The position numbers and the translations under genes were made by a program. Under the pieces are notes generated by a model. That model saw only the letters and a list, made by a program, of their open reading frames with translations, was not told the DNA's origin and searched no databases. From a virus, in IMG/VR virus record IMGVR_UViG_3300036770_000537, positions 1-30,105 of that record: a stretch of DNA of 30,105 nucleotides; one strand, 5' to 3'. This document shows, one piece after another, positions 2,575 through 12,965 of this stretch (the first letter of the stretch is position 1; every line of letters starts with the position of its first letter).

Positions 2575-3192
2575 ATGGCTGACTTAAAGATTTCCCAACT
2601 ACCTGCCGCAACTACCCCGGTCGCGGGTACTGAGGTACTACCTATTGTTCAAAGCGGCACAACCTCTAAAGTATCCATCGCCGATCTAACTGTAGGACGG
2701 GCGGTTACTGCCACTACGTTTCTAGGCGGCTTAGACACGAACGTGGCTGCGGCAGGGTTGACCGTAACCGGCACAACCGTAGCGGCTGACGGCACGGACA
2801 CAAACATTAACCTTACCCTAACCCCACAAGGTTCAGGCGTCGTAACAACTGCCGCAACGTATTCAGATGGCGGCGGTAAGTTAAGGGCGATTCCACAATC
2901 TGGCTCAGCTAAAACTGCTTCTTACACGCTTGCTGTTGGCGACGTTGGTAAATTTATTGAAGTTGGAGCAAGCGGATCAATTACGATTCCTGATGCAACC
3001 TTTGCGGCAGGTGATGTTGTTTCAATCTTCAACAACACCTCGGGTAACATTACGATTACTTGCACAATTACAACGGCTTACATAGCGGGTGTTGATACGG
3101 ACGAAGCAGCGGTTGATTTAGCAACCCGAGGCATTTGCACAATTCTGTTTATTAGCGGAACGGTCTGCGTGATCTCAGGAAATGTGTCATGA
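2575..3192 (+). CDS. Structural fibre-like protein
   Basis: A 205-aa protein. The opening MADLKISQLPAATTPVAGTE followed by LPIVQSG and VSIADLTVGR is a widespread N-terminal module of phage fibre or head-decoration proteins. The remainder is Thr/Ala/Gly-rich repetitive beta sequence ending in a domain (YTLAVGDVGKFIEVGASGSI and on) often found in fibre shafts or caps. There is no enzyme motif. An acidic GGAG-type site lies just upstream. It is followed without a gap by the DUF1566-type gene (ATGA), so this may be the attachment fibre that carries the next protein; that pairing is inference. Confidence 0.8.
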   Translation: MADLKISQLPAATTPVAGTEVLPIVQSGTTSKVSIADLTVGRAVTATTFLGGLDTNVAAAGLTVTGTTVAADGTDTNINLTLTPQGSGVVTTAATYSDGGGKLRAIPQSGSAKTASYTLAVGDVGKFIEVGASGSITIPDATFAAGDVVSIFNNTSGNITITCTITTAYIAGVDTDEAAVDLATRGICTILFISGTVCVISGNVS

Positions 3193-3827
3193 GTGGTATC
3201 CACTTAGCCCTTTTGGGAATGAGTTTTGGAGGTGGTCTGCCTGCAATCGGGTCTGCTTACGAAGGCGGGTTTTTTGCCGGTCAGATTTCAACGGCGGGTA
3301 ACGGCATTGCAGACTACAACCTCGTTATTGCGCCTAAGTCGTCGGGTGAAAATTCCAGCAAGCAATGGAAAACGTCAAACACTTCAACGGCGGGAACCTC
3401 TTCAGTTATTGATGGGCCTACTAATAGCGCCAATATGAATGATGCTTCGCATCCTGCGGCTCAATTTTGCGAAGGGCTTACGATTGGCACTTTTTCTGAT
3501 TGGTACATGCCAGCTCAAAACGAGTTAGAAGTGTGCTATTTCAACCTCAAGCCGACTACTACAAGTAACGACACGATACGGTCAGGTACAAACACCAATG
3601 CCGTACCTAGCAGGGGTAGTAACTACACGGCGGGGACTCCTGCCCAGACTGCTGCGACTGATTTTCAAACCGGAAATACAGAAGCGTTTGCTTCGAGCTA
3701 CTACTGGTGTAGTACAGAGACCAGCGCAGTAGGCGCCCGGATACAGCTCTTCGCTAATGGCGATCAGAGCGACGGCTTTAAGGACTCTAGCTTCTATGTT
3801 CGCGCCGTTCGCAGAGTGGCAGTATAA
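3189..3827 (+). CDS. DUF1566 / Lcl-C-like C-type-lectin-fold protein, putative receptor-binding protein
   Basis: A 212-aa protein coupled by ATGA to the fibre-like gene. The middle holds the usual DUF1566 phrases (GFSDWYMPAQNELE-like around residues 95-115, and YYWCSTE near 171-177) and the end is YVRAVRRVAV. DUF1566 domains are predicted to adopt a C-type lectin fold and are known as variable targets in some phage diversity-generating retroelements (DGRs). The last ~38 codons show the pattern expected of such a variable region: many codons ending in C or T whose first two bases differ, flanked by conserved YYW and RAVRR. No reverse transcriptase or template repeat was recognised in the window. 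Likely role: host-surface recognition at a fibre tip (inference). Confidence 0.82.
   Translation: MSGIHLALLGMSFGGGLPAIGSAYEGGFFAGQISTAGNGIADYNLVIAPKSSGENSSKQWKTSNTSTAGTSSVIDGPTNSANMNDASHPAAQFCEGLTIGTFSDWYMPAQNELEVCYFNLKPTTTSNDTIRSGTNTNAVPSRGSNYTAGTPAQTAATDFQTGNTEAFASSYYWCSTETSAVGARIQLFANGDQSDGFKDSSFYVRAVRRVAV
3699..3812 (+). other. Putative DGR variable region (VR) inside the DUF1566 gene
   Basis: From the YYW codons to the AVR codons, about 20 of the 29 codons between 3711 and 3797 have the form NNY (agc, ggc, ctc, ttc, gac, tct, tat and similar). These could derive from AAC/AAT codons of an adenine-mutagenised template. The flanks are clean (TACTACTGG and GTTCGCGCCGTTCGC). A matching template repeat was not found by eye in this window, so the call rests on codon pattern and family knowledge. 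Confidence 0.5.
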
Positions 3828-3836
3828 GGATAAATT

Positions 3837-4259
3837 ATGAAACATATTGTCATAACCGAAGTAGACGCTAAAACCAAAGTGCCTTGTACGGTTGAACCGC
3901 AACGCACAGGGCCATCCATGCCTAAAATTAAAGGGCTTGTGCTTGACTGGGTTGATAAATCAACATGGCCCGTGGAGCTTGATTCAACAGGCAGATACCT
4001 TCGTGCGCCTAAGTATTACGGTACTTGTGATAACGATGCCGATTTGACTGTTGCGGGGGTATTGGAAGTCATTACAGAGGTTGAGTGGACGACCCGCAAG
4101 CACGACGAGTTTTACGCTAGACAACCTTACCCTTCGTGGGTCTGGAACTCGTTTGACTTTACTTGGTCTAGCCCCGTTCCGTACCCAGAAGGCGCCGACT
4201 TTAGCGCTTACAAATGGGATGAAGAAACAACATCTTGGGTTGAGCGAGAAACAGCATGA
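3837..4259 (+). CDS. Trp-rich virion-associated hypothetical protein
   Basis: A 140-aa protein following the DUF1566-type gene after nine bases. The C-terminal half carries the aromatic phrase YPSWVWNSFDFTWSSPVPYP followed by YKWDEETTSWVE. This PxPSW / W-x-P-x-P-x-P / WDEETxSWVE arrangement recurs in small proteins encoded beside phage fibre genes, notably in marine and freshwater phages. The N-terminal half may be a small beta domain. The biochemical role is not known; tail-fibre accessory or assembly factor is a guess. The stop overlaps the next start as ATGA. Confidence 0.72.
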   Translation: MKHIVITEVDAKTKVPCTVEPQRTGPSMPKIKGLVLDWVDKSTWPVELDSTGRYLRAPKYYGTCDNDADLTVAGVLEVITEVEWTTRKHDEFYARQPYPSWVWNSFDFTWSSPVPYPEGADFSAYKWDEETTSWVERETA

Positions 4260-5577: not shown

Positions 5578-6783
5578 GTGGCAAATACCTTACTAACCAT
5601 TGACATGATTACAAGAAAGGCTCTTGAGATTCTTGAGAACAACCTTGTAATCACCCGTAACGTAAATCGTCAGTACGACGATTCTTTCGCCGTTGAAGGC
5701 GCTAAAATTGGCTCCACACTGCGTATTCGCCTTCCGGATCGCGCTCTTGTGACCGACGGTGCTGCACTTCAGGTTCAAGACGACAACGAGCAGTTCACCA
5801 CCCTTACAGTTGCTTCCCAGAAGCATATCGGTGTGAACTTCACGTCTGCCGAACTGACCATGCAGCTCGACGACTTTGCCGAGCGTGTGCTTAAGCCCCG
5901 TATCAGCCAGTTGGCCGCTTCCATCGACGCCGATGTTGCTAACTCTTATGAGAGCATCTATCAAGCCGTTGGTACTCCCGGCACCACTCCTGGCACGTCG
6001 CTGGTTCTTCTTCAGGCCCAGCAGAAGTTGAACGAGGCCGCTGCAACCATGATGCCCCGCTACGCAACGGTTAACCCCGCTGCTAACGCCGGACTGGTTG
6101 AAGGCATGAAAGGTCTGTTTAACCCCACCTCCACCATCTCCAGCCAGTTTAAGAACGGCATGATGGGCGAAGGCGTTCTGGGTTACGACGAGATCAACAT
6201 GTCTCAGTCTGTTAAGCAGTTCACCACCGGCTCCCGTACCAACGGCGCTGTAAACGGTGCTGTTTCAACGCAAGGCGCCGACTCCATTGCCATCGACGGC
6301 GTGGGTAACGCGGCCACTATTGAGGCGGGCGACATATTCACAATTGCGGGTGTGTTTGCTGTTAACCCCCAAACCCGTGAGTCCACCGGCTCGTTGCAAC
6401 AGTTTGTTGTGACTGCCGATGCAACAGCTAACGGTAGTGGTGAAGTAACTGTTGACATTAGTCCTTCGATCTACACCTCGGCTAACGCCTTGGCAACCGT
6501 TAACAGCTTCCCCGCTAACGATGCTGTCGTAACCTTCTTGGGTTCGGCCAGCACTGCCTATCCTCAAAACTTGGTCTACCACCGCGATGCCATCACTTTC
6601 GCAACGGCTGACCTGCTTCTTCCCCAAGGTGTTGACCTTGCTTCGCGTCAAGTCCATAACGGCATCTCCATGCGCGTTGTTCGTCAGTACGACATCAACA
6701 ACGACCGTATGCCCTGCCGTATTGACGTGCTGTACGGTTTTGGCGTTATCCGTCCTGAAATGGCTGTTCGCCTCTGGGGCTAA
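5578..6783 (+). CDS. Major coat protein, P22 gp5-like (HK97 fold)
   Basis: A 401-aa protein with a GTG start at 5578 behind GAAAGGA. P22 coat is ~430 residues, so the length fits. The N-terminus NTLLTIDMITRKALEILENN, then RNVNRQYDDSF and IGSTLRIRLPDR, followed by VNFTSAELTMQLDDFAERVLKP, is characteristic of P22-type coat proteins. Codon use is more C-rich at third positions than in neighbouring genes, consistent with high expression. A strong hairpin terminator follows the stop at once, so the coat message can accumulate separately from downstream genes. Confidence 0.93.
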   Translation: MANTLLTIDMITRKALEILENNLVITRNVNRQYDDSFAVEGAKIGSTLRIRLPDRALVTDGAALQVQDDNEQFTTLTVASQKHIGVNFTSAELTMQLDDFAERVLKPRISQLAASIDADVANSYESIYQAVGTPGTTPGTSLVLLQAQQKLNEAAATMMPRYATVNPAANAGLVEGMKGLFNPTSTISSQFKNGMMGEGVLGYDEINMSQSVKQFTTGSRTNGAVNGAVSTQGADSIAIDGVGNAATIEAGDIFTIAGVFAVNPQTRESTGSLQQFVVTADATANGSGEVTVDISPSIYTSANALATVNSFPANDAVVTFLGSASTAYPQNLVYHRDAITFATADLLLPQGVDLASRQVHNGISMRVVRQYDINNDRMPCRIDVLYGFGVIRPEMAVRLWG

Positions 6784-10846: not shown

Positions 10847-11361
10847 TGAGCGAACTCACCGTTACCCAGTCCAGCCGAGAGGTTTCTACGCCAGTAAATG
10901 TGCGGCAAAAAATAGAAAACTTGCAGACTGAGCTGTTAAAAATGCCGCAGGCTAATATTCAGACAATTCACACCTTTGCTTTTGGCAAGTATTATCGGAC
11001 AATAGTAGTACCACCTTGGGTTGTTTTGACTGGTGCGGCGCACAAGACCGACTACAAAGTTAGGCTAGAAAAAGGCAAAATAGCAGTTAATGTGGACGAT
11101 AAGATAAAAATTTTACAGGCACCATGCAAATTTGACGCGGCGGCAGGTGCTCAACGAGCAGGGCGTGTGTTTGAGGAAGAAGTAGTCTGGACGGACGTTT
11201 ACGACAACCCAGACGACTGCACGAACATAGAAGTTTTGGAAGACAGATTGTATGTGGTGCCGGAGTGTGGATTAGGGTCAAACCGGCCTCAATTGGCAAA
11301 CGAAAGTAATCAGGCAAAACAATTTGCCTACGAAGGAGATATATCATGGCTGGATTCGTAG
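10846..11361 (+). CDS. Cupin-like phage protein
   Basis: A 171-aa protein starting at the ATG that overlaps the upstream stop (TAATG); an in-frame upstream extension would run into the fibre gene. After a helical N-terminus (VRQKIENLQTELLKMPQ) comes a jelly-roll-like stretch: KYYRTIVVPPWVVLTGAAHKTDYKV, KGKIAVNVDD, APCKFDAAAGAQRAGRVFEEEVVWTDVYDNP. The order VVP-G-AHKT-G-I, then P-G-R-G-EE-VWT resembles small cupins found in phage tail regions. The usual metal-binding histidines are mostly absent, so a structural role is more likely than catalysis. The last 16 bases overlap the next gene. Confidence 0.68.
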   Translation: MSELTVTQSSREVSTPVNVRQKIENLQTELLKMPQANIQTIHTFAFGKYYRTIVVPPWVVLTGAAHKTDYKVRLEKGKIAVNVDDKIKILQAPCKFDAAAGAQRAGRVFEEEVVWTDVYDNPDDCTNIEVLEDRLYVVPECGLGSNRPQLANESNQAKQFAYEGDISWLDS

Positions 11362-12965
11362 CCGCAGCGATAGTAGGTAGCGCCGTTGTTGGCGGCATAG
11401 CCTCAAGTAGCTCAGCCCGCACTCAAGCAGAGGCCGCAGAACGCGCGGCTGAAACTGGGGCAACTGGCGCTGTTCGTGTCGCGGAAATAGAGGCAGAGTC
11501 TAACGAAAGAGCCGCCGAGCTTCAAGCTCAAGCCTACCTTGATGCCGCCCGTGAATTAGAGCTAGGCGCGGTAGGCGCGGGGGGCATTGAATTTCCGACA
11601 TCTCGCGCTCCGGGAACAATTACGCCAGCCGAACTAAACCAATTTAACGAAGCGGTTGCTACCGGGCGTTTTGATGACGCTGCGCGGCTTGCGGCAGCAA
11701 CAGGTGTTTCTCCCGAAACGGTTACCCAATACATCAATGCAAATTTAACAGGTTTAAATTTACCTGAGCCAGTTACTCAAGCTAACGTAAACGAGCTAAT
11801 GAGCCGCGCTCAAACCGGCCAATTTAACGACGCAGTTGCTACAGGACGTTTTGACGAGGCTGCGCGAATTGCCATATCAACAGGGGCCACTCCTGAAACA
11901 GTTACCCAATACATCAATGCAAATCTAGCAGGTTTAAATTTACCTGAGCCAGTTACCCAAGCTAACGTAAGCGAGCTAATGAGCCGCGCTCAGGTTGAAG
12001 GTGGCGGCATAAGAGCAGGGACTGAAATAGAAGCACGGGCAGCAGAACGAGCAGCAGGCGAAGTTGCGGGGGGTGAAACAAGAGCCACCCTTTTACAGCA
12101 AAAACGCATGGACGACGCGCTTACCGCGCAGCGAAATTTACTTTCTCCATATAGCACTGCGGGCGCGACCGCTGTAAATCGACTTTCTACTGGTTTGGCT
12201 ACGGGTGGTGAGTTTGCCAAACCCTTTACTTTGACAAATTTTACCGCCGATCCTGGCTATGCGTTTCGTTTATCTGAAGGCCAAAAAGCGCTTGAGCGAC
12301 AATCTGCCGCTAGGGGCGGCCTAATGTCAGGCGGCGCGTTAAAGGCGGCAACACGTTTTGGTCAAGAGATGGGGTCGCAAGAATTTCAAAACGCTTTTAA
12401 TCGCTACTATGCTGAGCGAGGAGCACAACTTGACCCGCTTTTTCAACTTTATTCAGGAGGTTTAGCGGCCTCTGGTGACTTGGCAAGCGCTGAAGGCGCG
12501 GCAGGCAGGGTTACGGCAGACTATTTGGGTGCAGGCGAAACCGGCGCGGCCCGCGCAAGAGCGCAAGGCACATTAAGCGCAGGCGCAGCACGAAGCTCAG
12601 GTTATTTAGAGGAGCTTGATGCTAGATCAAGAGCTGCAAGAGAGCTTGCGGCTATCCGCGCTTCGGCCTATACCGGCCCTGCTGCGTTTACCGCTGAAGG
12701 TATTCGAGGCGCTGGTTCAGCAAGAGCTGGCGGTGTGCGCGAATCGACTGCGGCCACCAGCGCGGGGCTGTTACGCGCAGGCGAAGCCCGCGCTGCCGGT
12801 ACAATGGGCATAGCTAACGCGTTGAGTGGAGGGTTAAACACTGGGCTAAACTACTATCAAAATCAGCAACTTTTGAATAGGTTGGCACCTTCACCAACAT
12901 CAAGCATAAACATAACGTCAAACCCAACTATGGGTAATTTTCCGAGCTTAAATCGTTTCGGCTAA
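11346..12965 (+). CDS. DNA ejection / internal virion protein with duplicated 60-aa repeat
   Basis: A 539-aa protein with an almost T7-gene-10-like ribosome site (GAAGGAGATATATC). The N-terminus (AGFVAAAIVGSAVVGGIASS) is a hydrophobic helix, followed by an Ala/Glu-rich coiled coil. Residues ~99-158 and ~159-217 are near-identical repeats (ATGRFDxAAR, then PETVTQYINANL and GLNLPEPVTQANV). The next module, ~254-385 (FTADPGYAFRLSEGQKALERQSAARGG then SGGALKAATRFGQE), is widespread in phage ejection-type proteins. The Ala/Gly/Arg-rich C-terminus is helical. Position after gp10 matches the P22 ejection genes (7, 20, 16), whose products leave the head and help DNA cross the envelope. Confidence 0.85.
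   Translation: MAGFVAAAIVGSAVVGGIASSSSARTQAEAAERAAETGATGAVRVAEIEAESNERAAELQAQAYLDAARELELGAVGAGGIEFPTSRAPGTITPAELNQFNEAVATGRFDDAARLAAATGVSPETVTQYINANLTGLNLPEPVTQANVNELMSRAQTGQFNDAVATGRFDEAARIAISTGATPETVTQYINANLAGLNLPEPVTQANVSELMSRAQVEGGGIRAGTEIEARAAERAAGEVAGGETRATLLQQKRMDDALTAQRNLLSPYSTAGATAVNRLSTGLATGGEFAKPFTLTNFTADPGYAFRLSEGQKALERQSAARGGLMSGGALKAATRFGQEMGSQEFQNAFNRYYAERGAQLDPLFQLYSGGLAASGDLASAEGAAGRVTADYLGAGETGAARARAQGTLSAGAARSSGYLEELDARSRAARELAAIRASAYTGPAAFTAEGIRGAGSARAGGVRESTAATSAGLLRAGEARAAGTMGIANALSGGLNTGLNYYQNQQLLNRLAPSPTSSINITSNPTMGNFPSLNRFG
11641..11994 (+). repeat. Tandem duplication, 180-bp period, within ejection protein gene
   Basis: The first copy begins at 11641 and the second at 11821, both with AATTTAACGA. 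Long identical stretches include GTTACCCAATACATCAATGC and GGTTTAAATTTACCTGAGCC. The encoded 60-aa units differ at about ten positions. Confidence 0.93.

Follow-up and report, generated by a model that had tools for sequence, protein, structure and literature searches.

An orphan variable region, probably left by a deleted or replaced DGR cassette, at the 3' end of a DUF1566-type phage gene

The diversity-generating retroelement (DGR) of Bordetella phage BPP-1 is a functional cassette, and its adenine-directed variable region (VR) lies at the C-terminus of Mtd, a fibre-type receptor-binding protein. The cassette is not always complete in other phages. In crAss-like phages, the DGR cassettes of 91 genomes were incomplete in 66 and complete in 15, and the VR was found in 80 genomes, only 30 of which contained the template repeat (TR) (PMC7290462). 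A VR with an incomplete cassette is thus already known, and the locus described here is an unusually well-resolved example. DUF1566 is the commonest Pfam domain among DGR targets (PMC6642488). Surveys that start from the reverse transcriptase (RT) do not see targets remote from it (PMC8144416), and by the same logic they overlook orphan VRs too.

The sequence analysed here (the window) is an IMG/VR fragment of 30,105 bases, which is the whole record and encodes a P22-type coat gene. Its 5' edge falls within the portal gene, and the record is incomplete (30 kb vs 36-46 kb in the longest related records). The closest relative, L001 (5 kb), has 92% identity to the window, with a mosaic distribution in which many stretches reach 98-100%. 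The features around the target gene are as follows.

2575..3192, plus strand: upstream gene of 205 aa, overlapping the target start; 97% in L001 and 90% in L002, and the same neighbour in close relatives
3189..3827, plus strand: target gene for a 212-aa DUF1566/Lcl_C-type protein, a probable tail fibre or receptor-binding protein (Pfam, phrog, AlphaFold, 51 viral relatives)
3690..3812, plus strand: VR, TR-homologous by codon alignment to four TRs, with a hypervariable core at about 3696-3797
3828..3836, plus strand: junction of 9 nt, the site of Avd-TR-RT in relatives
3837..4259, plus strand: g3837, a phrog_7759 homologue, located after the RT in most relatives that have a DGR

Several other features of the window were recorded. 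A DUF5856 gene at 1736-2098, matching phrog_858 (starvation-inducible regulator family), adjoins the portal gene in relatives too. Two direct repeats of 174 nt each, 87% identical, lie at 11639-11992 within the ORF 11346-12965, and the intergenic segment 28349-28408 holds a short tandem array of the heptamer GGGTTGA. Besides, positions 6240-6620 show 62-85% identity to L001 within an otherwise near-identical coat gene, which suggests a recombined coat segment.

The 212-aa protein was matched to Pfam Lcl_C (PF07603) with E 1.5e-7 and 32.2 bits, below the gathering cut-off of 34.9, which is exceeded by its homologue in the relative L009 (39.5 bits). It also matches phrog_4245 (E 2e-25), and a scan of viral contigs with the target returned 51 relatives. 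For the AlphaFold model (pLDDT 90), the best PDB match in a fold search is the C-terminal domain of Legionella Lcl (8q4e, E 7e-5), which is likewise the best solved structure in a sequence-profile search (E 3e-7), while classical C-type lectins match the model only at E about 1. Lcl is therefore the closest known structure by profile and by fold; it is a bacterial adhesin domain with 18% identity to the target in the fold match, and the likeness implies no DGR context. By the Lcl_C match and the predicted fold, the protein whose C-terminus holds the VR is of the DUF1566, C-type-lectin-like type, and it is probably a tail fibre or receptor-binding protein.

Members of this target family also occur as tandem arrays of 2-4 DUF1566 paralogues before g3837 in records without RT (L007, L008, L011, L013, L014, L015, and also L018, L022, L026, L030, L040). 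Orthologous array members can carry frozen VRs, as in L013/L015 and L018/L030.

A DGR-type VR in a DUF1566-like protein had been proposed from the sequence alone, and the proposal is borne out by the homologues that have intact DGRs, in which TR and VR differ at A only. The ORF 3189-3827 (plus strand, 212 aa) carries YYW at 3699-3707 and AVRR at 3804-3815, and exactly 20 of the 29 codons in 3711-3797 end in C or T, as that reading had counted. Its extent of the VR, 3699-3812, was nearly right, the TR-homologous stretch being slightly longer (3690-3812). The count is weak by itself, as 62 of the 104 upstream codons in the alignment also end in C or T. The informative test concerns the columns that are AAC or AAT in the TRs of DGR-bearing relatives, with columns classed by four TRs. 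It turned out that all 13 codons of the window at these columns are NNY, compared with the 62/104 upstream (p = 0.004). For the window and its three closest relatives, an amino-acid-matched test gave 30/31 NNY codons where 18.3 were expected (p = 1e-6), and K, E, Q, M or W occupied none of 52 residues at these columns vs 45 of 412 upstream. Orphan VRs overall are less strictly NNY (84%) than those of the window clade (97%).

The divergence between relatives is distributed in the same way. The window differs from L001 at 25/42 template-A sites (60%), vs 10/70 non-A sites of the VR (14%) and 16/312 upstream sites (5%) (p = 1.5e-6 and 8e-17), and from L003 at 23/42 A columns, 8/70 non-A sites and 60/303 upstream sites. 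The exact 32-nt flank pattern was found in viral_contigs only in L001 and L003, to which the cross-sample comparison is limited. The 10/70 non-A changes mean that the window VR is no perfect match to one template shared with L001. Judged by its letters, the stretch 3690-3812 has the traits of a VR, with variation at template-A positions, NNY codons and conserved third bases. In a silent VR, exemplified by L013/L015, the divergence is 2% at A sites vs 13% upstream; the 60% vs 5% between the window and L001 indicates that this VR was rewritten or exchanged recently. It is very fresh and near-saturated relative to L001, as would likewise be expected if a DGR were still at work in some unseen place. 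The raised non-A changes, together with synonymous changes in the 3' flank of the VR, indicate that recombination probably contributed.

No mutator had been recognised in the window by the sequence-only reading, and our searches agree. There is no RVT_1 match in the 30,105-base record and no tblastn match to Avd. An A-tolerant scan of both strands for a TR-like repeat found nothing above shuffles, the best off-site match scoring -38 (null mean -40); in L009, L005 and L047 the score is 92-97 with no non-A mismatch. Only 9 nt separate the target stop from g3837 in the window, and Avd, TR and RT are absent from there; comparison with relatives places the expected site of the cassette at 3828-3836.

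In these relatives the cassette is intact. The order in 7-8 independent relatives is target, Avd, TR and RT, followed by g3837 wherever it is detectable (L041 ends within the RT, and L047/48 have no g3837 match). An RVT_1 gene occurs in exactly the TR-bearing records, 8 of the first 50 target-relative records, among which L004/5/6/10 and L047/48 are near-duplicates. By the ungapped A-tolerant repeat test, the VR is followed at a distance of about 650 nt by a TR in L004/5/6/10, L009, L041 and L047/48, with no non-A mismatch, and four TR/VR pairs of 123 nt contain 20-25 differences at TR adenines and none elsewhere. The gene between target and TR is Avd (bAvd PF22296, E 7e-12; in L009 also the DGR Avd model NF033474). 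The RT matches RVT_1 (E 2e-17) and has the motif IGNLSSQ, as expected of DGR RTs (IGxxxSQ); its matches include Bordetella phage records. The cassette occupies about 1750 nt at the target-g3837 junction in L009 and L005, and target, Avd, a TR-like stretch and RT were also found in L220-L223. The DGRs of L009, L005, L041, L047 and L220-L223 thus have a homologous target, a VR at the same columns and, in most, g3837 next, but they keep Avd, TR and RT, all three of which the window is without.

Near relatives of the window hold parts of this cassette at the same junction, where RT was searched with a trimmed query from L009 (TR stretch removed). In L001 the gap is 59 nt and contains TTTAAT repeats and the start codons of Avd (x-ARYKHLS vs MAQYKHLP), a likeness equalled by none of 3000 shuffles; this Avd is truncated, and no more of it is carried. 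From g3837 up to and including the coat gene, the congener L218 runs collinear to the window (84% nt identity over 3057 nt, coat 92% aa); its record begins with a partial DGR RT, namely the last 80 aa, which end just before g3837. Two-ended deletion scars are found in L011, which retains the 5' end of Avd and the 3' end of RT, and in L042, where 47 aa of Avd are fused to the last codons of RT. At the target-g3837 junction of L003, where others have the DGR, there is an HNH_3 endonuclease gene (726-1138, E 8.5e-14). The junction of L002 had been taken by eye for an Avd-start remnant (RYKYFTFYKTIA), which the nucleotide test did not support (p 0.38). In other orphans, short junctions are similar to the RT end in the stretch before and at the g3837 start, where g3837 and RT overlap in L005, and these were not scored as remnants.

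The junction of the window itself holds no remnant, and its short TAAGGA...ATG form resembles that of several other DGR-less lineages, so the window may have received an already DGR-less module. In the g3837 tree, the window, L001, L218, L003 and L002 form a 100/100 clade, whose nearest outside row is the DGR-bearing L009. The tree requires at least 5 changes of DGR state and rejects the grouping of all DGR bearers in one clade; losses can be counted only roughly, since many branches are weak and modules recombine.

With a probability of about 0.78, we consider the 3' end of the 3189-3827 gene to be an orphan DGR VR whose cassette was deleted or replaced by recombination. The VR signature, the homology to intact DGR targets, the missing cassette, and the RT and cassette remnants that near relatives retain at this site are apparent from comparison of the sequences. 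A DGR was presumably active in this exact lineage in the past. It would have been of the kind that lies between target and g3837 in relatives, with Avd, template RNA and an error-prone RT, and would have rewritten 3690-3812: cDNA copies of the TR, mutated at adenines, would yield NNY codons in the surface domain of the probable receptor-binding protein. The Avd-TR-RT block would then have been removed, through deletion in the lineage or recombination with a DGR-less relative. Since the block is absent from the site, the VR is probably no longer rewritten and would now evolve by ordinary mutation and recombination. The earlier reading had left three options for the retroelement (elsewhere in the genome, acting in trans, or lost), among which local loss or replacement is best supported, given the 9-nt junction, the Avd remnant of L001, the scars of L011 and L042, and the RT of L218 at the same synteny.

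An intact DGR located elsewhere in the genome, beyond the sequenced part, or one acting in trans from the host or a prophage, is less likely, and we regard it as improbable. The incomplete record, starting within the portal gene, leaves room for it, the VR is fresh and strongly unlike that of a close relative, and remote targets are known that RT-centred surveys overlook (PMC8144416). However, the RT is a close downstream neighbour of the target in the target-family relatives whose RT is at least 67% identical to that of L009, and in L047/48, and the nearest relative, L001, has a truncated Avd only. Among 150 related records, RT was positive only in the eight with target, Avd, TR and RT; none of 99 tested coat/portal/primase relatives, many of 30-46 kb, has RT, though most of these are without this target. 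A TR-compatible pattern had no exact match in a one-per-species collection of bacterial and archaeal genomes; the test is weak, since one drifted non-A site is enough to prevent such a match. It is very improbable that no DGR was ever involved and that diversifying selection on a binding surface favoured Y, S, N, D and G, whose codons often end in C or T. The VR is indeed rich in such residues, and the looser NNY fraction of orphan VRs overall (84%) points the same way; but the third base is C or T even where A or G is possible, as in the 30/31 codons above, and homologues possess a TR that departs from their VR, in these columns, at A only. The NNY excess after amino-acid matching and the divergence at A columns disfavour ordinary selection alone.

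The cassette may also never have been at this site in the window's lineage, the VR and its tail being imported from a relative by homologous recombination with crossovers in the conserved flanks; we hold this to be possible, if doubtful. The divergence between the window and L001 is mosaic: there is almost no difference in 3360-3540 or in the scaffold gene, and a single divergent block comprises the VR, the codons after it (where synonymous differences are numerous) and the junction. Non-A sites are raised too (14% vs 5%), and target and g3837 modules occur in contigs without match to the head genes of the window. Against this, the excess over the flanks sits at template-A sites (60%), and import from a divergent homologue would not concentrate it there unless the donor VR was itself DGR-made. 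On the g3837 tree, RT is also present in one row within the clade and in the closest row outside it, which makes an ancestral cassette the simpler account. Import overlaps with loss or replacement of the cassette; it alters the route and leaves the DGR origin of the VR. The data are best explained if the cassette was recently active and then lost or replaced, or if a DGR-made VR was acquired from a DGR-bearing congener, for example L218.

Most sampled members of this DGR target family have no RT alongside and are missed by RT-first surveys. Close relatives offer a comparative series of intact cassette, one-ended remnant, two-ended scar and clean junction, which makes the rate of loss and the after-life of phage hypermutation directly testable. 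A broader idea, which we think rather unlikely, is that many target-family phages shed the DGR and keep the repertoire of binding sites that it made, as in the tandem paralogue arrays of records without RT, new VRs being recombined from DGR-bearing relatives and then fixed. If so, the phage community would share the output of few mutators, and window/L001 (rewritten) and L013/L015 (frozen) would represent two phases of this sharing.

In comparison with known systems, the likeness to BPP-1 lies in the workings, while its target family (Mtd) differs from the DUF1566-type target here. The situation is similar to that of alpha crAss-like phages, where the state of one locus varies among close relatives from a complete cassette through a partial one to a VR that has no TR. 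Unlike in those phages, the locus here belongs to a phage with a P22-type coat, the target is of the DUF1566 type, the intact cassette includes Avd, and the site and gene order differ.
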